Source: a virus. From it: a DNA stretch of 20,076 bases. The notes under the pieces were generated by a model. The model was given only the letters and a program-made list of their open reading frames with translations. It searched no databases and had not been told where the DNA came from. A program made the translations under genes and the position numbers. Positions 1-20,076 of this stretch are shown here, piece after piece (position 1 is the stretch's first letter; the number at the start of each line of letters is the position of its first letter). The stretch covers positions 1 through 20,076 of the IMG/VR virus record IMGVR_UViG_3300044729_002524; one strand, given 5' to 3'.

Positions 1-42
1 CCCCGCCTGCCCCTGCCCCCGCTTGCCTGCCCCCGCCTGCCC
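1..42. repeat. C-rich tandem repeat at the window edge
   Basis: The stretch is almost pure C with interspersed TGC and GCC. The 12-mer CCCCGCCTGCCC occurs at 1-12 and again at 31-42, a 30-bp period, so the window may start inside a longer array. On the minus strand it gives five runs of three or more G within 42 nt, enough to allow a G-quadruplex. No coding sense is evident. The composition contrasts sharply with the AT-rich phage genes downstream. Confidence 0.6.
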
Positions 43-44
43 GG

Positions 45-110
45 TGTTTTACCCCTAAAACTTCCCTGGTCTCAAGTGCGCCAAAACGGCTCATGTTTTA
101 CCCCTAAAAC
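45..110. repeat. Two copies of a short inverted repeat (operator-like)
   Basis: TGTTTTACCCCTAAAAC occurs identically at 45-61 and 94-110. Each copy is an inverted repeat with arms GTTTTA and TAAAAC around a CCCC centre. Identical palindromic sites 49 bp apart suggest paired binding sites for a dimeric regulator, or replication-region sites. No adjacent gene shows which. There is no T-tract after the arms, so a terminator is unlikely. Confidence 0.5.
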
Positions 111-275
111 AAAACGCTTTTAAATCCGTTTTAAGCCTCGCGAAACGCCTGTCCGCTGTCAGGGTATTCCCCCCCCGTTACAAAACACCGAAAACACAGC
201 AAAACCCCAATGTTTATCGTTAACGTGGCACCGGAAAAAAAAACCAATCAGAATGCGCCTATTGGGCGTTTAAAC

Positions 276-440
276 CGTGCCAAGTTCCCGAAAAGTGAAC
301 TTTTCTTCAAGAAAAGTGTCTGCGGTGGCCGAATTCGATGCCTTGGCATAGAACCTGCCCGACAGGAACCGTGCCAAGTTACCTACTCATTTTGCGTGCC
401 AAGTTCGGCAATTTTGCGCGATTCAAGAACCGTGCCAAGT
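276..440 (+). repeat. Four iteron-like direct repeats
   Basis: CGTGCCAAGT occurs four times on the + strand, starting at 276, 370, 395 and 431. Three copies are preceded by AAC, giving AACCGTGCCAAGT, and three are followed by a further T. An inverted core (CCTTGGCA) lies at 341-348. Start-to-start distances are 94, 25 and 36 bp, so this is not a simple tandem array. The cluster ends about 40 bp before the 478-506 promoter, so the repeats could be regulator sites for it. They could equally be replication iterons. No replication initiator gene is visible in the window. Confidence 0.55.
299..317. repeat. Near-perfect 19-bp palindrome
   Basis: ACTTTTCTT (299-307) and AAGAAAAGT (309-317) are exact reverse complements around a single C at 308. 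The palindrome lies between the first and second iteron-like repeats. It has no T-tract and no flanking gene, so a protein binding site is more likely than a terminator. Confidence 0.45.
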
Positions 441-2627: not shown

Positions 2628-3014
2628 ATGAAGATCTACTGTCAAAAATGTGGTAATGCAACTGAATATTCCTTTGATAAACCAAAGTTTTGTTCTGGCT
2701 GCGGTTCTAGTTTTGTTATTGCTTCTTCTTTCATTCCGAAAACAGCTAAGCCTGTTATTAAAATTACACATAATGAATCAGAAGAAGAAATTTCAGTAGA
2801 AAAAGTACCGCATCTTGATAAATTAGATTTTGAGATAAACGTAAACTCTGCTAAAGGAATAAGACTTAACAACTTGATAGGTACTCACAATGGTCAAGCT
2901 ACGGAGACGACAACCTTCAGTAGTCAAAAGATAAACAAAGAACAGGCTATGGAAGATTTTAAACGAGAAGCAGGTCATTACCCAGCTCGACAATCAATGA
3001 ATGAAGAAGAATAA
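2628..3014 (+). CDS. Zinc-ribbon protein of unknown function
   Basis: 128 residues. The N terminus holds a compact zinc ribbon, C5-x2-C8 and C22-x2-C25, followed by an acidic, low-complexity region and no second recognisable domain. The ATG at 2628 is preferred because the zinc ribbon begins at residue 5 and a TATAAT lies 7 nt upstream. A longer in-frame start at 2517 would run through the antisense gene with no supporting motif. The last 14 bp overlap the sigma-like gene, suggesting co-translation and perhaps a related role in transcription. This link is inferred from position only. Confidence 0.75.
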   Translation: MKIYCQKCGNATEYSFDKPKFCSGCGSSFVIASSFIPKTAKPVIKITHNESEEEISVEKVPHLDKLDFEINVNSAKGIRLNNLIGTHNGQATETTTFSSQKINKEQAMEDFKREAGHYPARQSMNEEE

Positions 3015-3681
3015 ATTAAAATTCGAAAATTACATTGAATTAATCAATTTAGAAATAGCAAAGCGGAAAAATAAATGGACACTTACTGCTATTAACTGGA
3101 TGGGTTTCGAAGACGTTTCGCAAATCATAATTTCTCATATATATAAAAAATGGAGTCTCTATGACGAAAAGAAGCCTTTGCTCCCTTGGATAAACAGAAT
3201 CATCTCCAATCAAATAAAGAATTTAATTAGGAATAACTACGGAAATTATACTCGTCCTTGCTTAAAGTGCGCAGCTTCCATAGGCGAAAATGAATGCAAA
3301 ATTTACGGTAAGCAAGAAAAATCTTGTCCACTATACGATAATTGGATAAAAACTAAAAAGAATGCTTACGATTTAAAAATGACATTATCCATAGAAGACC
3401 ATTCTCGTGAAATAAATAATCAATCAATAGAGCAGTGCGACATCGCGAAAGCTTCGGTCAGTCTTCATGAAAAAATGAAAAAAATTCTTAAGCCAATAGA
3501 ATGGAAGGTCTATGACTTACTATACATCCAGAATAAAACAGAAGAACATATCTGCAAAAATTTAAATTTTAAGTACGACAAGAAAGCTAAGACTACTTAC
3601 AATAAACAGCTTAGGAATATCCAAAAGAATATAATTAAAAAAGCTAAACAATGTTTACTTAATGGAGAAATAGACCTATGA
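3001..3681 (+). CDS. Sigma-70-family-like factor with Cys-rich insert
   Basis: 226 residues. Residues 31-85 look like sigma region 2: an EDVSQ start, then a helix ending PWINRIISNQIKNLIRN, the pattern of the core-binding and -10 recognition helices. Residues 155-218 look like region 4, with a helix-turn-helix and a basic C-terminal helix. Between them is a Cys-rich insert (C87, C90, C99, C109) that could bind zinc and is absent from standard ECF factors. I recall similar inserts in phage sigma-like proteins, but this is unverified. It probably directs the host RNA polymerase to late phage promoters. The gene overlaps its upstream neighbour by 14 bp and the downstream one by 4 bp (ATGA), so translation is coupled. 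Confidence 0.65.
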   Translation: MKKNKLKFENYIELINLEIAKRKNKWTLTAINWMGFEDVSQIIISHIYKKWSLYDEKKPLLPWINRIISNQIKNLIRNNYGNYTRPCLKCAASIGENECKIYGKQEKSCPLYDNWIKTKKNAYDLKMTLSIEDHSREINNQSIEQCDIAKASVSLHEKMKKILKPIEWKVYDLLYIQNKTEEHICKNLNFKYDKKAKTTYNKQLRNIQKNIIKKAKQCLLNGEIDL

Positions 3682-4766
3682 ATGAAATAAACCTCTCTCA
3701 AGAACAAAAAGATTTAATAATTAGTACTTGGAACAGCCGGAAAGACAACCCGCCTAGCTTGCAAGAGTTAACTCAAATTATTTTCCCAGATGTCCCGGAT
3801 ATAGATGGGCGTAGTAAGTATGGCAAAGCTGTAAAAAATTTTATAGCTTCAAGAGAAATAAAAATAAAAACTAAGAGCGAATACACTCCAAAAAATAGAA
3901 TTGATTTCACTCAAGACCAAAAAGATTTTATCGCTAATAACGCCTCTTCTATGACAGCTGTAGACTTGGCAAGAGATCTTTTTAATAATTATAGTTTAAC
4001 TAATCTTTCTATTGAAGCTCGTAGCATCCAAGAATATTTAGACACTCTTCCTAAGCAAATTCAATCAAACACATCAGATAGGGAAGACGAGCAAGGCGAA
4101 TACAAACCACCCAAAAATTTAGAAAGAGCCTTAGTAAGAGTTAATAGGTTTGTTCTCAACGGACTAGACAAAGATAAGCTGACGTTTAAACAAAAAAAAG
4201 ATTTAACTTCTCTTATATCTTATCTGCATACTTTTAGATTTCTTCATCAAATCAGCACCTATTTAACGCAACAAGATAGAGAGCTATTCGAAAGCAGTTT
4301 TATAAGATACTCTTACGACAAAGGGGATTTAACTCAAGAAGAAGTTGATCAATACATTATTCTAGCAACAGAAGTTGTAATTTCCGCAAACATTCAACGA
4401 ACAATACAAACCCTTCAAGAGCAAATTGACATGGAAATGTCTTCTGGCAACAGGATCCCAATGCCATTAATAGAAGCGGTAACTTCTGCTCGGACAGAAT
4501 ACAATCAGTGCGTTACTCGTCAGCAAAAACTTCTTAATGATCTAAAAATCAAGAGAAGTGAAAGGCTTTCTAATCTTGTTAAAGAAAACGCATCTATCCT
4601 TAATCTTGTTCAAATGTGGAAAGACGAAGACTCTAGAAAAGAAATGATAAAAATGGCAGATATGAGACGAGAAGTCTTAAAAACTGAAATTGGTCGTTTA
4701 TCTTCCATGGACGACGTGAAAGCTAGAATCTTTGGTTTAACAGAAGAGGAGGTTCTAGATGGTTAA
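3678..4766 (+). CDS. Helix-turn-helix protein, possible small terminase
   Basis: 362 residues. The N terminus has two related helical units, residues 4-57 and 75-122. Each begins with a similar phrase (NLSQEQKDLI and DFTQDQKDFI) and both resemble winged or helix-turn-helix DNA-binding modules. The remainder is highly helical and charged, with possible coiled coil at about 240-340. The start overlaps the sigma-like gene by ATGA, with GGAG about 10 nt upstream. The end overlaps the nuclease gene by 8 bp. A DNA-binding protein two genes before TerL is in the place of a small terminase subunit. That is inference from position, and a transcription or replication regulator is also possible. Confidence 0.5.
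   Translation: MNEINLSQEQKDLIISTWNSRKDNPPSLQELTQIIFPDVPDIDGRSKYGKAVKNFIASREIKIKTKSEYTPKNRIDFTQDQKDFIANNASSMTAVDLARDLFNNYSLTNLSIEARSIQEYLDTLPKQIQSNTSDREDEQGEYKPPKNLERALVRVNRFVLNGLDKDKLTFKQKKDLTSLISYLHTFRFLHQISTYLTQQDRELFESSFIRYSYDKGDLTQEEVDQYIILATEVVISANIQRTIQTLQEQIDMEMSSGNRIPMPLIEAVTSARTEYNQCVTRQQKLLNDLKIKRSERLSNLVKENASILNLVQMWKDEDSRKEMIKMADMRREVLKTEIGRLSSMDDVKARIFGLTEEEVLDG
4745..4752 (+). promoter_or_regulatory. Strong ribosome binding site for the nuclease gene
   Basis: AGAGGAGG ends 6 nt before the ATG at 4759 and lies inside the end of the preceding gene. It is one of the few strong Shine-Dalgarno sequences in the window and fixes the start at 4759. Confidence 0.75.
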
Positions 4767-5679
4767 ATGTAAAATTTGTAATTTAGAATTTGAAACGGAG
4801 AAGTCTTTTCATGGACATCTTAAGTCTCACCAATTAAGAATGGTAGAATATTACCAGACTTATGAGCCTAGGTACGATTTATGTTCTGGAGAATTAATAA
4901 ACTTTAAAAATAAAGATTATTATTTCTCTAATGATTTTAATAATAAAGTCTCCATGAAAAAATGGCTAAAGCTACAAGATTCAGCCGTTCAAAAAGAATA
5001 TTTAAAAAAATTTCTCTCGCAAAGAAAAGAAAAGCACAACTTAACTTATACTCCTACGGAAGTAGAGCTTCGCTCTATTACTAGCCCTCCAATTCCTTAT
5101 TATCACAGTCTTTTCTCTGATTATTATAGTCTTTGTAGCGAAATTGGTTTTAGAAACAAATACCAATACCCAAAAGGAGAGCTTGAATCAGAAATAAAAC
5201 AAGGCTTCAAGATATTTATTGATACTAGAGAGCAGATGCCTCTTGTTATTGACTATCCGACAGAAGTTAAAGGCTTAAAGTTTGGAGACTACGCCATTAA
5301 TGATCCAGAAAACAAATGCTATATCGAAAGAAAATCTATCTCTGATTTTATTGGCACAATGAGTGGTGGATACGAAAGATTTTGCCGCGAAATAGAAAGA
5401 TCAATAGCAGCAGAAGCTAATCTAATTGTGTTGATAGAACGCCCGCTTCAAGAGTGTTTAAGCTTTCAGTATCTCAATTACGTTTCCAAAAAAATCAAAG
5501 TCACTCCAGAGTTTGTTTTCTTCAATGTCAGAGAATTGATTCAGAAATATAATAATGTGCAATTCTTATTTGTAGATGGCAGAGAAGAATCTGTAAGAGT
5601 AATGAAAAAAATATTTTTTAGCAGCGGAGAGTATAAAAAATATGATTTGCAATTAATGTACGATTTAAACATGTTGTAA
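4759..5679 (+). CDS. C2H2 zinc finger fused to ERCC4-type nuclease
   Basis: 306 residues. A classic C2H2 finger opens the protein: C4-x2-C7-x12-H20-x3-H24. A linker of about 120 residues leads to an ERCC4-type nuclease domain from about 151. This shows the DTRE strand (155-158), GDY (176-178) and the catalytic signature E190-R191-K192-x3-D196, all expected for XPF/Mus81-type structure-selective endonucleases. The key acidic residues are present, so it is probably active. Likely substrates are branched or flapped DNA in replication or recombination intermediates. Its place next to TerL suggests clearing branches before packaging, a job done in T4 by an unrelated resolvase. This last point is inference. 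Confidence 0.8.
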   Translation: MVKCKICNLEFETEKSFHGHLKSHQLRMVEYYQTYEPRYDLCSGELINFKNKDYYFSNDFNNKVSMKKWLKLQDSAVQKEYLKKFLSQRKEKHNLTYTPTEVELRSITSPPIPYYHSLFSDYYSLCSEIGFRNKYQYPKGELESEIKQGFKIFIDTREQMPLVIDYPTEVKGLKFGDYAINDPENKCYIERKSISDFIGTMSGGYERFCREIERSIAAEANLIVLIERPLQECLSFQYLNYVSKKIKVTPEFVFFNVRELIQKYNNVQFLFVDGREESVRVMKKIFFSSGEYKKYDLQLMYDLNML

Positions 5680-7536: not shown

Positions 7537-8418
7537 ATGGCTAATTTAATTAGAAGAAAACAGATAGATCAGCCAGAGTTTTCTGGGTTTATCGTAGAGG
7601 TAGGAGATAGTAATTACTATCCCTTGTCTTCTAATCCGGTTGGATACGTTAATCAAGCGACACTAAATTCTGCGACAGGCACGCTAAATTCTATTATAAA
7701 TAGTGTTTCTGGAGATTTAGACACAAAAATTCAAAACTCTGGAAGCGCTGCAAATGGTTTCTCCAATGACATAAGCGGAGCTCTTTCGATTCGCCTTTCT
7801 AATACTGGAAATTCCTTATTGGGAGAAATAAACTCTCTTAGCGGCTATACTGTTTCAGTAAGCGGAGCCTTGAATAGTACTATCCTTTCTGGTAGTGGAG
7901 CCGTTAGCACCAAGGTTGATGTAGCGAGTGGATTCTTGAAATCTTATACAGATACAGTTTCTGGATCACTTAATAATCAAATTGCAACTGGATCTAGCGC
8001 CGCGAATGTCAACAATATAGCTAGCGGAAATAATTTTAATTTCAGCGGCACAAAAACTTTTTTATCTCCGATAACTGCTCAAACAATAAATATTAGCGGG
8101 TCTACTAATCCAACTAGCATCTCTATTGTGGCGTCTTCTGGAGTCGTGTCTATAGTCGGAGACAATGGTACTTTTGTTAGTTATTTCGAAACAGGAGCCA
8201 ACGCTTCTTTGTACGCAGTGACTGACTCTAATGGGTTGCCAATGATAGAGCTATTTGATGACTACACTTTAATTTTGGGACATTCAAGTAGACCATCTAT
8301 TATTATTAGCGGGTTGTCTGGGTATGTTTTGTTGCCAAGTCTGCCAACTCAAACGCAAACAGGAGGCCTGCCTAACGGCACTATTTTTAGAAGTGGAAAA
8401 CATTTAATGATTTTATAA
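7537..8418 (+). CDS. Fibre-like virion protein, paralogue 1
   Basis: 293 residues. The N terminus (MANLIRRKQIDQPEFSGF) is nearly shared with the protein at 14689, so the two are paralogues with a common anchoring module. Residues about 45-165 repeat a pattern of 'VSG/SSG plus a short helix-like stretch', suggesting a trimeric stalk of coiled-coil or beta-helical type. The C terminus (GGLPNGTIFRSGKHLMIL) recalls a short beta motif that ends many phage fibre proteins. It is probably a virion fibre or appendage subunit. The gene stands between TerL and the portal, an unusual place for a fibre, and may have been inserted there. The start is fixed by the shared MANL terminus. No ribosome binding site is seen. 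Confidence 0.65.
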   Translation: MANLIRRKQIDQPEFSGFIVEVGDSNYYPLSSNPVGYVNQATLNSATGTLNSIINSVSGDLDTKIQNSGSAANGFSNDISGALSIRLSNTGNSLLGEINSLSGYTVSVSGALNSTILSGSGAVSTKVDVASGFLKSYTDTVSGSLNNQIATGSSAANVNNIASGNNFNFSGTKTFLSPITAQTINISGSTNPTSISIVASSGVVSIVGDNGTFVSYFETGANASLYAVTDSNGLPMIELFDDYTLILGHSSRPSIIISGLSGYVLLPSLPTQTQTGGLPNGTIFRSGKHLMIL

Positions 8419-14688: not shown

Positions 14689-15477
14689 ATGGCTAATTTA
14701 GTTAGGCTTAAGCAGCTGGATCAACCGGAGCTATCTGGTTTTGTTCTAGATGTAACAGACCAAAGTTATTATCCGAGTAGCAACCCTTCTGGTTACATCT
14801 CTGATCTTTCGTCTGAGAATGATTTTATTGTATTAAGTGGTAATCTAACAAATACAGGTTCTAATTTAGTTTCTTCAATTCAATCTGCGCAAACCAGTTT
14901 AAGCGGTTTCGTTGTTTCTACTGGGGCTTTTTTAAATTCTAGAATAGATTCTGTCTCTGGAGATTTAGTCGCTACGAATTTAGACGTATACACAGTTTCT
15001 GGTAATGTTCAATCAACTATAAATTCATTTTCAGGATTCAAGGTAGAAGTTAGCGGATCAATTAGCGGAGAAGTCTCTGGCCTAAATATTTTAATAAATC
15101 AAGCTAGCGGCACATTAAATACAAAAATTGATAATGTAAGCGGAAATTTAAATTCAAGAATAAGTAATTTAGAAGACAACTTTGCTTTAACAGGAAGTAA
15201 TTTTGTAGATTTAGATTCAAATAATCAAGTCGTTGAAGGCTCCAAAACTTTTAATAATAAAATTGGTTTTAAGCAGATAGATATTCTTCCATTTAGTGGA
15301 AACTACAGTAATCCTGGCGGGCAACACGGCATTTTATTTACTCAATTTATAGATAATTTTAGTTTTATTGCTAGCGGATTAGGAACAGTTACTGGAGACG
15401 CTTTCGTAACAAAAATAATGCAGCCTAACAATATAGAATGTATAATATGTTCTATTATTTATACAGGATCTTATTGA
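14689..15477 (+). CDS. Fibre-like virion protein, paralogue 2
   Basis: 262 residues. It shares the N-terminal module of the protein at 7537 (MANLVRLKQLDQPELSGF against MANLIRRKQIDQPEFSGF). It has the same repeating stalk style, with 'SGNL', 'VSGDL' and short polar heptad-like segments at about 45-160. The C-terminal third is unrelated, and Cys appears only near the end. This pattern, constant base and variable tip, is common in phage appendages that exchange tips. It lies upstream of the large adhesin and the collagen-like gene, in the same direction, and probably forms part of the same virion structure. The start is supported by the shared MANL terminus. Confidence 0.65.
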   Translation: MANLVRLKQLDQPELSGFVLDVTDQSYYPSSNPSGYISDLSSENDFIVLSGNLTNTGSNLVSSIQSAQTSLSGFVVSTGAFLNSRIDSVSGDLVATNLDVYTVSGNVQSTINSFSGFKVEVSGSISGEVSGLNILINQASGTLNTKIDNVSGNLNSRISNLEDNFALTGSNFVDLDSNNQVVEGSKTFNNKIGFKQIDILPFSGNYSNPGGQHGILFTQFIDNFSFIASGLGTVTGDAFVTKIMQPNNIECIICSIIYTGSY

Positions 15478-15478
15478 T

Positions 15479-17791
15479 ATGGAAATAAAAAAAGTCTATG
15501 GTTCTTTAGATTCTGCCGGAGACTCTTGCGTCTTGTTGTATGATTTCTTTGGTAAATCTTACGACGGCGAACCAACCACAAATTTATTCACTCAACCAAC
15601 TGGAAACGCAGGCTTTGCAATAAAACCGGCAAACACTGGAAGAGCATTTTTTAAATTAGACTATTCAGCCAACTTAGGCGGGCAAGGTAATTTTTTTGAC
15701 AACGCTCCTGAGCCATTCAATAAGTTTGATTCTATTTATAAATATAATTATGTATCTGGTCAAACAGATTCTACTTCTAATAAACATGGTTTTAATATAA
15801 ATGTAATAAGAGGAGAGACGTATACCGCTTCTGTAGATGTTTTTGTTTCGACTGGTCATCCGAGAACTGGGAAAGCTACTGTTTTAAGTTTAACTCCGAA
15901 CAGCCAGGATTTTAATACAATTAGCGGTTCTTACGATTTTAACTCGAAGGGGTCTTGGCAGAGTATATCGGAAAAAGTTTTTGTTCCTGCTGTGTCTAAT
16001 AATTTTGGTAATAGCGCTTTTTATTTTGAGGTGGGTGTAGCTACAAAAACGGCTCAGCATCCTTTTTTTGGGTCTGGATCTGCGCAAGGATTTGTAGTTT
16101 CTAATATTCAAGGCAGAACTCTTAATTTGTACAAGGGCGGAACTTATGTATTCCTTCAGTCTAATATCAGTAACGTTGATAATGAGTTTTATTTGTCAAC
16201 AACGGCAGGAGTAGGAGGCGGCACGAACGCTTATAATACTAATTTTTCTTATTATGGAAACAAAGGCTTTGATGGTTATGCAGTCTTTAATGTTCCATTC
16301 AATGCTCCGAGTGTTTTGTTTTACAATTCAAAAACCGAAGGGACATCTTTTTTCGGAGGAAAAATAAATATTTTAGGAGGATACAATTCTGGGAACGTAG
16401 GCAATATTGGGTCTTCAGGGAGTTCTGGCTCTTCTGGTAACGTAGGAACCGTTAGCGAAACATCATTGTCATATGCTGTTAACTTTGACCCTACAAGAGG
16501 CGAATTGGTAGGGGCTAACTTAAATGGAGGTTACATTTTATATAGGAACATGCAATTTGAAAAGAATAAGCCGATGTTCAAAGGTATCGCTCATAAAACA
16601 AAATTTACTTCTTCATCAAGAAGCCCATTCGGGAGCTTTCTAGATCTAACTGGGCGTGGCAACAATTCTAATTTAATAAATACGATGTTTGATTCTGATG
16701 CTTTAATTGTTTTTGGCAACAGAACAAATTTAAACGATGGAGGCTTAGTAGACGTAAACTTGAAATTTAACTCTCAAAAAACCTTCTCCATAGGTAGTGA
16801 AATAACACAAACTTATGATTTCTGGTTTACTCAGACAAGGACTTCTTTCAGAAGGGCTTATCTTTTTGCGAGGTCTAGTGCTGTGTTTTTAGATTACTTT
16901 TTAGAAAATCAAGGCGCTCCGCAGTTGATATATATAGAAGACAAAAAAATTTACTTTAGTTTCGCTTCTGCTTCTGGCGATATCTTGTCTGGATATACTG
17001 CTGCGGTAATAGAAAAAAATACTTTATATAACGTGTGTATCTGCGTCAACACTTACCTGCAAGAAGGAGAAAAGGTAAAGGTTTATATAAATGGCGAGGA
17101 AGTCTCTGTAATTATATTGTCTGTGGTAGAACCTCCTTCTTCTTTGTCTTTTTCTAATGTATCGTCTAATGTAAATAATTTAACTAACTCTGGAAATGTT
17201 GGTTTTTTAAATAACGCTACAAATTTTTACTGCATATCTTCTTTTGACGGAGCTGGAGAATCAAAAGCTTCTAATATAATATCTGCAGCGAGTGATCCTA
17301 TAAAAAAATCAATTCAATTATCTTGGCCTATTGTAGAAAATGCTTTTGGCTATTATTTATATAGATCAGGCTCTCCAGTATTTGGCAATTTTTCTTTACT
17401 CGCTGAGCTTAACAGTAAAAACATTTTATCTTTCATTGACGAAAATAATCAAACTAAAACTGGTTTCCCTAAAACCGCTGCGAAATATAATCTTAATTAT
17501 AATAAAAATATAACTTCTATTGTTGATAATTCTGTTTCAAAAGTTTGTTTTGGAAATTATCCATTATCAAATAATACAGTTAATTATTTTGAAGGTCGCA
17601 TATACAGGATTGCTCTTTACAAGATTCAACTTTCTTCGATTCAGATAAATAGAAATTATAATTCATTTTTATATAAGTATATATCTGAAAATCCTTTGAT
17701 AATAAACTCTCCAAATAAACAAAGAAGTGTAATAAGTGGTAATACTGGAACTACTGGCTCGGCTGGAAGTTTTAGAAAGGTACTGGAATAA
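15479..17791 (+). CDS. Multidomain adhesin with CBM-like and LamG-like domains
   Basis: 770 residues. Residues about 15-200 and 325-385 resemble the two halves of a carbohydrate-binding-like jelly roll of phage adhesins (YTASVDVFV, GSWQSISEKVFV, then YILYRNMQFEKN). Between them, about 205-300 resembles a cupredoxin-like domain (LNLYKGGTYVF, VPFNAPSVLFY, GGKINI). A short Gly-Ser stretch (310-320) follows. Residues about 385-550 and 685-730 look like a LamG/concanavalin-like lectin (FSIGSEIT, VKVYINGEE, then YFEGRIYRIALYK). The stretch about 575-665 between them is FN3-like (IQLSWPIVENAFGYYLYR). It ends with a mini-collagen tail (GNTGTTGSAG). Likely a receptor-binding virion protein for glycans. 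Domain calls are by motif memory. ATG 15479 lies one base after the previous stop. Confidence 0.68.
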   Translation: MEIKKVYGSLDSAGDSCVLLYDFFGKSYDGEPTTNLFTQPTGNAGFAIKPANTGRAFFKLDYSANLGGQGNFFDNAPEPFNKFDSIYKYNYVSGQTDSTSNKHGFNINVIRGETYTASVDVFVSTGHPRTGKATVLSLTPNSQDFNTISGSYDFNSKGSWQSISEKVFVPAVSNNFGNSAFYFEVGVATKTAQHPFFGSGSAQGFVVSNIQGRTLNLYKGGTYVFLQSNISNVDNEFYLSTTAGVGGGTNAYNTNFSYYGNKGFDGYAVFNVPFNAPSVLFYNSKTEGTSFFGGKINILGGYNSGNVGNIGSSGSSGSSGNVGTVSETSLSYAVNFDPTRGELVGANLNGGYILYRNMQFEKNKPMFKGIAHKTKFTSSSRSPFGSFLDLTGRGNNSNLINTMFDSDALIVFGNRTNLNDGGLVDVNLKFNSQKTFSIGSEITQTYDFWFTQTRTSFRRAYLFARSSAVFLDYFLENQGAPQLIYIEDKKIYFSFASASGDILSGYTAAVIEKNTLYNVCICVNTYLQEGEKVKVYINGEEVSVIILSVVEPPSSLSFSNVSSNVNNLTNSGNVGFLNNATNFYCISSFDGAGESKASNIISAASDPIKKSIQLSWPIVENAFGYYLYRSGSPVFGNFSLLAELNSKNILSFIDENNQTKTGFPKTAAKYNLNYNKNITSIVDNSVSKVCFGNYPLSNNTVNYFEGRIYRIALYKIQLSSIQINRNYNSFLYKYISENPLIINSPNKQRSVISGNTGTTGSAGSFRKVLE

Positions 17792-17794
17792 AAT

Positions 17795-20076
17795 ATGGCT
17801 ATTACAAGATATGCAGGAGACAGGTTTTATGGATTAGATTCTGAAAAAGAAACTTTGCTTTCTCAAGTAATTGATGGAGCGCAATTCACAGCATCAGATA
17901 CATTAATTGTTTATTCTAAAGTAGGCGGTTATTGGTTGCCTTCTACCGGGACCGTAGGCTCAATTGGAAGCAGAGGATCAATTGGAAGCACAGGGTCAAC
18001 AGGCTCCTCTGGTACTTCAGGATCATCTGGAACGAGTGGTACATCTGGTACTTCAGGATCGTCTGGTACTTCAGGTTCGTCTGGAACTAGCGGTACATCT
18101 GGATCAACAGGCGACTCTGGCACTTCAGGATCGTCTGGAACTAGCGGTACATCTGGAACGAGTGGTACATCTGGTACTTCAGGATCGTCTGGTACTTCAG
18201 GTTCGTCTGGAACTAGCGGTACATCTGGATCAACAGGCGACTCTGGTACTTCAGGATCGTCTGGTTCTTCAGGATCATCTGGAACTAGCGGTACATCTGG
18301 AACGAGTGGTACATCTGGTACTTCAGGATCGTCTGGTACTTCAGGATCGTCTGGTACTTCAGGATCGTCTGGTGCTTCAGGATCGTCTGGTACTTCAGGA
18401 TCATCTGGAACGAGTGGTTCGTCTGGTACTTCAGGATCATCTGGAACATCTGGAAGCAGTGGGTCAACAGGCGGAACTGGCGGTATTGGAAGCACAGGGT
18501 CAATTGGAAGCACAGGGTCAATTGGCAGTTCAGGAGGTACTGGCGGTACTGGAGCTACGGGAGGTACTGGCGGCACTGGAGCTACAGGTGGTACTGGAGC
18601 TACAGGCGGTACTGGCGGTATTGGAAGCACAGGGTCAATTGGCAGTTCAGGTTCATCTGGAACGAGTGGTTCGTCTGGTACTTCGGGATCATCTGGAACT
18701 AGTGGCTCTTCTGGAACTTCAGGAAGTAGTGGAACTTCAGGTAGCAGTGGAACAAGCGGTTCTTCTGGAACTTCAGGCAGTTCTGGTACTAGCGGTTCTT
18801 CTGGAACTAGTGGTTCGTCTGGTACTTCAGGTTCATCTGGAACATCTGGAAGCAGTGGGTCAGCAGGCGGAACTGGCGGTATTGGAAGCACAGGGTCAAT
18901 TGGAAGCACAGGGTCAATTGGCAGTTCAGGCGGTACTGGCGGTACTGGAGCTACAGGCGGCACTGGAGCTACAGGCGGTACTGGCGGCATTGGAAGCACA
19001 GGGTCAATTGGAAGTTCAGGCGGTACAGGTGGCACTGGAGCTACAGGCGGTACTGGCGGTATTGGAAGCACAGGGTCAATTGGAAGCACAGGTTCAACAG
19101 GCGGTACAGGCGGTATCGGAAGTACTGGGTCGATGGGAAGTAGAGGCTCAACAGGCAGTACAGGCGGTACTGGCGGTATTGGAAGCACAGGGTCAATTGG
19201 AAGTTCAGGTGGTACAGGTGGTACTGGAGCTACAGGCGGTACTGGCGGTATTGGAAGCACAGGGTCAATTGGAAGCACAGGGTCAATTGGAAGTTCAGGC
19301 GGTACAGGTGGTACTGGAGCTACAGGCGGCACTGGAGCTACAGGCGGTACTGGCGGTATTGGAAGCACAGGGTCAATTGGAAGTTCAGGTGGTACAGGTG
19401 GTACTGGAGCTACAGGCGGTACTGGCGGTATTGGAAGCACAGGGTCAATTGGAAGCACAGGTTCAACAGGCGGTACAGGCGGTACTGGAGCCACAGGCGG
19501 CACTGGAGCTACAGGCGGTACTGGCGGCATTGGAAGCACAGGGTCAATTGGAAGCACAGGTTCAACAGGCGGTACAGGCGGTATCGGAAGTACTGGGTCG
19601 ATGGGAAGCAGAGGCTCAACAGGCAGTACAGGCGGTACTGGCGGTATTGGAAGCACAGGGTCAATTGGAAGTTCAGGTGGTACAGGTGGTACTGGAGCTA
19701 CAGGCGGTACAGGCGGTATCGGAAGCACAGGGTCAATTGGAAGCACAGGTTCAACAGGCGGTACAGGCGGTACTGGAGCCACAGGCGGCACTGGAGCTAC
19801 AGGCGGCACTGGAGCTACAGGCGGTACTGGCGGCATTGGAAGCACAGGGTCAATTGGAAGTTCAGGTGGTACAGGTGGTACTGGAGCTACAGGCGGTACA
19901 GGCGGTATCGGAAGCACAGGGTCAATTGGAAGCAGAGGCTCAACAGGCAGTACAGGCGGTACTGGAGCCACAGGCGGCACTGGAGCTACAGGCGGCACTG
20001 GAGCTACAGGCGGTACTGGCGGCATTGGAAGCACAGGGTCAATTGGAAGTTCAGGTGGTACAGGTGGTACTGGAGC
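17795..20076 (+). CDS. Collagen-like virion protein, open at the right edge
   Basis: At least 760 residues; no stop occurs before the window ends. The N terminus ([16 protein letters not shown], then [22 protein letters not shown]) matches a module I recall at the start of phage collagen-like fibres. From Gly52 onward Gly falls at every third position without a visible break, at least 236 triplets. X and Y are mainly Ser, Thr, Ala, Ile and Gly, with almost no Pro, so the helix must be stabilised otherwise than by hydroxyproline. Composition alternates between GTS/GSS blocks (about 18000-18480 and 18650-18870) and GGT/GAT/GST/GSI blocks (the rest). It probably forms a trimeric fibre. The gene follows the adhesin stop by 3 nt. 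The long reverse ORF over it is only a shadow of the repeats. Confidence 0.85.
18031..18246 (+). repeat. Direct duplication, 126-bp offset, in the collagen-like gene
   Basis: Bases 18031-18120 (90 bp) recur identically at 18157-18246 as far as I can read. The offset is 126 bp, or 14 Gly-X-Y triplets, so the frame is kept. It includes the rare GDS triplet (gcgactctgg) that marks both copies. Confidence 0.75.
19031..19710 (+). repeat. Direct duplication, 468-bp offset, in the collagen-like gene
   Basis: Bases 19031-19242 match 19499-19710 over 212 bp with two differences seen by eye (one T/C in a GGT-ATT triplet, one T/C at 19141 against 19609). The offset is 156 residues, or 52 triplets. The copies share the rare GSMGSRGS segment, so they come from a recent duplication rather than independent repeats of short units. 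Confidence 0.75.

Follow-up and report, generated by a model that had tools for sequence, protein, structure and literature searches.

What is a cupredoxin-like domain that has lost its copper ligands doing in a protein likely to sit on a phage particle, and does it truly lie within a second domain? The question is raised by an open frame in IMG/VR virus record IMGVR_UViG_3300044729_002524, of which positions 1 to 20,076, the whole 20,076-nucleotide stretch analyzed here, are referred to as the window. Our computational results make it quite probable that residues 181-301 of the 770-aa product form a cupredoxin sandwich without copper ligands, set inside a carbohydrate-binding-type (CBM-type) jelly roll and kept by selection as a structural or recognition module of the virion fibre. 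Sequence comparisons used an alignment of the protein in 27 versions, complete or partial, from aquatic viral contigs (identity 50-97%), the window's own included. The open frame, residue numbering and ligand losses described in a first-pass annotation of this DNA agree with what we found; feature coordinates are collected in the table.

The product is referred to as an adhesin by inference from its gene company, which makes virion location and host binding likely; it is a putative phage tail fibre or adhesin. Its gene adjoins what look to be head genes and lies downstream of them in window order, and the upstream genes look like those of portal and capsid proteins by size and order. A cement-like protein is also encoded upstream (PF22758, E 2e-5, slightly under the Pfam cut-off), and the gene lies between two ORFs, a fibre-like one (14689-15477) and a long collagen-like one that begins at 17795 and continues to the window end. 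The collagen-like ORF (17795-20076) carries Gly-x-y repeats up to that end, and long frames on the opposite strand (17929-20076) seem to be a side effect of these repeats. The fibre-like protein of 14689-15477 has a paralogue at 7537-8418 (32% identity over 208 residues), with a common start, 'MANL(I/V)RxKQ(I/L)DQPExSGF'. Elsewhere in the window, 3001-3681 gave a Sigma-70 region 2 match (E 2e-5) indicative of a phage sigma-like factor, and 4759-5679 encodes an ERCC4-type nuclease domain (E 1e-7) after a C2H2 zinc-finger-like start. The 232-aa product of 840-1538 has a signal-like N-terminus, a beta-barrel-like sequence and a final Phe but no Pfam match; its traits suggest an outer membrane protein encoded by the phage.

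Features of the adhesin gene (window positions; residues are those of the 770-aa protein)
Feature	Position	Strand	Basis or remark
770-aa multidomain virion-surface (fibre/adhesin-type) protein, putative	15479..17791	+	open frame; 27 aligned versions, aquatic viral contigs
First part of CBM-type jelly roll, predicted (residues ~56-178)	15644..16012	+	Pfam CBM_4_9 below cut-off; CBM16/22/4 structural matches
Cupredoxin-like domain without copper ligands, predicted (residues 181-301)	16019..16381	+	profile match, hhalign, Foldseek/VIA cupredoxins on ~178-305
His194, sole conserved His of the domain (26/27), loop between strands 1 and 2	16058..16060	+	alignment
Asn235 at first ligand His position	16181..16183	+	Asp in 18/27, Asn in 9/27
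Ser284 at ligand Cys position	16328..16330	+	Ser in 27/27
Thr289 at second ligand His position	16343..16345	+	Ser/Thr in all 27; soft assignment
Phe292 at ligand Met position	16352..16354	+	Phe or Val in all 27
Gly/Ser/Asn-rich linker back to jelly roll (residues 302-328)	16382..16462	+	length varies in alignment; pLDDT ~27-30
Resumed jelly roll, last strands 'YAVNFDP...GGYILYRNMQFEK', predicted (residues 329-363)	16463..16567	+	strands at model 274-281, 297-307, pLDDT 81-83
Laminin_G_3/concanavalin-type lectin domain, C-terminal (LamG; residues ~404-735)	16688..17683	+	Laminin_G_3 E 1e-5, slightly under Pfam cut-off

At the sequence level, residues 181-301 are homologous to a domain common in aquatic phages, with a resemblance that exceeds chance along its full length. 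Copies of that domain with copper ligands in place were gathered from at least 122 places in viral contigs encoding the pattern 'YYYCxNHxGMGG', and a profile of 109 of them matched residues 199-298 of the adhesin at 35.7 bits (E 5e-10), the best of 1000 composition-matched shuffles reaching 8 bits. The reverse search, with an adhesin-family profile against the ligand-bearing relatives, scored up to 66 bits, and profile-profile comparison of the two families by hhalign gave a probability of 98.6% (99 columns, 31% identity). Residues 186-288 also matched the PHROG tail-fibre family phrog_30742 (E 1e-6), as did 23 of 24 ligand-bearing copies. The kinship to a domain of aquatic phages and bacteria that the first-pass annotation had proposed is thereby borne out, with wider limits: it had placed the domain at about 205-300, whereas in the joint alignment the first strand, 'FYFEVGVA' (181-189), aligns to the relatives' 'YTVTVA', and we set the start at ~181 and the end at ~301. 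Searches of Pfam and NCBIfam with the domain and with its ligand-bearing relatives returned no significant family. A second, ligand-bearing copy was sought in the window record, a 174-kb relative and two shorter relatives, which yielded the adhesin's own copy only.

Two AlphaFold models were used to place the domain. The first covered the whole 770-aa protein and was built from 23 ortholog sequences with ligand-bearing relatives excluded (mean pLDDT 61, domain 64-73); VIA matches to this full-length model were filled by the C-terminal domain and were uninformative on 181-301. The second covered residues 56-372 and was built from 21 orthologs plus 34 ligand-bearing relatives, which help its fold and were absent from the first alignment; its pLDDT over the cupredoxin-like domain was 77-89. 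In VIA, the second model matched CBM16 (Z 9.4, rmsd 2.6, 118/144 residues, spanning model 1..308), CBM22 (Z 9.0) and CBM4 (Z 8.6), with CBM matches overall at Z 8.4-9.4. These alignments took in only 114-133 residues over model 1..308 (protein 56-363), ended at model 306-312 and reached the final CBM residues, while cupredoxin structures aligned to model residues 118/123-252 (protein ~178-305). VIA reports only where an alignment begins and ends, and the gap in the CBM alignment is deduced from these numbers. Because the cupredoxin part falls mid-span of this gapped alignment, the CBM fold appears to be built from residues ~56-178 plus ~329-363. The host domain is thus predicted to have a CBM-type jelly-roll fold and the cupredoxin-like domain to be inserted in it, much as first proposed, with the jelly roll resuming at ~329 instead of ~325.

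Sequence profiles are less decisive on this point. Pfam CBM_4_9 (PF02018) matched residues 92-186 of the whole protein (E 0.0026, 18.6 bits) and improved on the excised piece (E 7e-5, 23.6 bits), still under the gathering cut-off of 25.9; joining the flanks with the insert deleted did not raise the score. Since the match is below cut-off and takes in strand 181-186, the insertion is unproven from sequence alone and rests on the models. A relative without the insert was not found among 36 loci, the three that lack the domain comprising two at a contig edge and one matching only 30 residues. The domains might instead stand in tandem, the jelly roll closing with strand 181-189, the cupredoxin-like domain following and residues 329-363 belonging to something else. 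Such an order would agree with the CBM_4_9 match, which reaches profile positions 41-132 of 136 by residue 186, and with the joined flanks' failure to score better. We consider it unlikely, in that the joint alignment pairs strand 181-189 with strand 1 of the cupredoxin-like family and the CBM structural alignments pass over the middle to end at protein ~361-367.

Insertion may have occurred elsewhere in the same protein. The C-terminal domain aligned with CBM40 and pentraxin structures at Z 14-15, and as only 166-180 residues were aligned within its 330, an extra beta-domain is left at about 570-660. The LamG/CBM40-type sandwich of the model therefore seems to hold a second inserted beta-domain, and domain-in-domain building seems to have taken place twice in the adhesin. 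A structural likeness between the C-terminal half and clostridial receptor-binding domains was set aside, what is shared being a common lectin-type sandwich also present in CBM40, pentraxins and sialidase modules.

Inspection of the copper-ligand positions of the domain gave a uniform result: none of the 27 aligned adhesin versions has a copper ligand at any of the four. Asn235 aligns to the conserved His of the relatives' 'xxHP[LF]', and Gly-Gly 293-294 are kept across aligned versions. The first-pass annotation had assigned Asn235 to the first His, Ser284 to the Cys and Phe292 to the Met, all of which stand; its choice of Glu287 for the second His gives way to Thr289, an assignment that is soft because loop 284-292 exceeds the family length by two residues. 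This loop contains no His in the 770-aa protein, and Cys is absent from the domain in all 29 distinct copies (those retrieved with the N-terminal half as query). The adhesin family therefore lacks Cys, ligand His and ligand Met, as had been claimed for the window's copy. As read from the alignment, residues 181-301 fall outside the blue (type 1) copper proteins, defined by His-Cys-His(-Met) ligands, and the family is without the conserved His and Cys-x2-His-x2-Met that most, though not all, members of the aquatic-phage domain possess. With neither Cys nor His available, no type-1 copper centre would be possible and electron transfer would not be expected. The site could have been rebuilt for another ion, with His194 joining Asp/Asn235, Glu236 or Asp265 to bind zinc, calcium or similar, and conservation of His194 (26/27), Glu236 (26/27) and Asp265 (27/27) fits this idea. 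A lone conserved His in a domain without Cys speaks against it, however, and His194 may serve packing; we consider such a site unlikely.

The ligand-bearing copies have one His followed by Cys-x2-His-x2-Met, the latter spaced as in the type-1 copper site of amicyanin. How often ligands are lost was gauged in a sample of 113 rows picked with a motif lying outside the ligand positions. His, Cys, His and Met were all kept in 106; the other seven comprised two in which every or nearly every ligand is gone (L227 still has a Met), two partial losses and three truncated pieces. A wider search added a further ligand-less copy, L117. Copies with some or all ligands lost (L227, L236, L117, L254, L255) are scattered among intact relatives. 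In a domain tree computed without the ligand columns, the adhesin family formed one clade (support 100/100) whose stem is long (1.56 changes per column), with L117, L227 and L236 placed outside it, each separate from the others. L227 and L117 grouped with ligand-bearing relatives at good support and L236 less firmly, many other forks being unresolved. This separation implies about four separate ligand losses, and the rarity of the ligand-less state suggests loss rather than gain.

One query found the ligand-bearing domain in 318 of 50,697 phage records, nearly all from phages of Synechococcus, Prochlorococcus, Pelagibacter and Methylophilales, and often in gp9/gp10-like baseplate or fibre proteins. 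Some contigs with marine bacterial or archaeal assignments carry the domain as well. In L113 (ORF from 359, + strand) and L069 (minus strand), it is apparently split by an insert after 'HPDGxRNLV', the Cys-His-Met end lying beyond the inserted stretch. Literature searches returned no paper naming the ligand-bearing domain and nothing relevant on cupredoxin or plastocyanin-like domains in phage tails.

Structure prediction and fold comparison, the check proposed in the first-pass annotation, yielded a cupredoxin-like sandwich and weigh more in the fold assignment than the weak profile matches of the ligand-bearing copies. Foldseek matched the first, orthologs-only model to rusticyanin (E 7.6e-4, 21% identity), and rusticyanin was the top PDB match of the second model, for which a titin Ig domain was also listed. 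VIA aligned 105 residues of the second model to the cupredoxin domain of nitrite reductase (Z 9.6, rmsd 3.1) and also found two-domain laccases (Z ~8.2); the best values here and for CBM16, Z 9.4-9.6, exceed the tool's stated background of 7-8 by a small margin. In BFVD, the matches of the second model included tail-fibre and structural virion proteins of cyanophages, with E values from 1e-7 to 1e-10. The cupredoxin-like model also matched, at 17-23% identity, small 'beta-sandwich' proteins encoded by Pithovirus LCPAC and Marseillevirus LCMAC, which raises the possibility that giant viruses have the domain as well. Residues 181-301 are accordingly predicted to adopt a cupredoxin fold, a plastocyanin-type Greek-key beta-sandwich. 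Beta-sandwiches look alike, the best Z is under 10 and an Ig domain is among the matches, all of which would suit an Ig-like or jelly-roll sandwich resembling cupredoxin by chance. We regard this as very unlikely in view of sequence homology to a family with the His/Cys-x2-His-x2-Met pattern, of whose members 10/24 match Pfam Copper-bind weakly (best E 5e-4) and whose profile has plastocyanin as its best solved-structure match, with Cys, His and Met aligned, but at E 0.16.

Coding-sequence comparison indicates that the domain is under purifying selection. Nei-Gojobori dN/dS was 0.03-0.10 for the domain (nine pairs) and 0.04-0.11 for the whole protein; several pairs have dS >1, making ratios rough, and the closest pairs (dS 0.5-0.7) give 0.03-0.08. 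These values indicate a domain that is maintained, not decaying, and together with the fixed replacements they imply that it is kept for something other than copper. That it is a decaying leftover without a role, as the loss of all four ligand positions might suggest, is hardly credible with dN/dS at or below that of the rest of the protein and replacements fixed across relatives down to 50% identity.

We propose that residues 181-301 descended from the copper-ligand-bearing domain now widespread in aquatic phage structural proteins, and that the domain came to be placed between the body and the last strands of a CBM-type jelly roll. A fixed set of non-metal residues (Asp/Asn235-Glu236, Ser284, Ser/Thr289 and Phe/Val292) would have taken the place of its copper site, leaving a domain presumed to have neither type-1 copper nor electron transfer. 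It may be a rigid module of a virion fibre protein, jutting out of the jelly roll next to the C-terminal lectin-type domain, with the former copper pole an ordinary protein surface that could make contact with glycans, the surface of the host or an adjacent subunit. Residues 181-301 are thus probably a building or sticking module. A broader proposal, which we hold only as a doubtful possibility, is that the widespread domain truly binds copper in virion fibre and baseplate proteins of aquatic phages and that its copper pole was repeatedly turned into a non-metal glycan-recognition surface in some lineages, here nested in a CBM.

Phages that infect marine cyanobacteria, SAR11 and other aquatic bacteria commonly carry the ligand-bearing parent, for which our searches turned up no curated family in Pfam or NCBIfam. 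Metal ions (iron) in phage tail fibres have been considered as possible baits for host uptake receptors in work on an Alteromonas phage (PMC11705849), and the ligand-free family would offer a natural control for a copper counterpart of this idea. A role found in fibres without copper would be structural, and one confined to intact copies would be the metal's. The adhesin is, in addition, a case of domain-in-domain building in phage surface proteins.

Among known systems, cupredoxin-fold proteins without copper are familiar from eukaryotes: ephrin ectodomains, early nodulin-like proteins and factor V/VIII domains. Like residues 181-301, these reuse the fold for binding or structure without type-1 copper, a likeness of fold reuse and not of tested kinship; a literature search on ephrin as a copper-free cupredoxin fold returned no paper. 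Rusticyanin, plastocyanin and the cupredoxin domains of nitrite reductase and laccase share the predicted fold (Z up to 9.6) but are redox proteins, whereas 181-301 has no copper ligands, ~20% identity or less to them, and a place in a virion-type protein. CBM16, CBM22 and CBM4-9 have the jelly-roll fold in common with the host domain, which differs in scoring under the Pfam cut-off and in holding a whole inserted domain. A further counterpart is the ligand-bearing aquatic-phage domain (phrog_30742, phrog_677, phrog_27200 and others), which shares sequence family, length, strand order and blocks such as 'L.LxxGxTYxF' and 'GGxI' with 181-301 and is likewise a module of phage structural proteins, present in fibre and baseplate proteins. 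Where that domain has His/Cys/His/Met, 181-301 has Asn/Ser/Thr/Phe, with two more residues in the equivalent of the Cys-Met loop and a predicted position inside a jelly roll.
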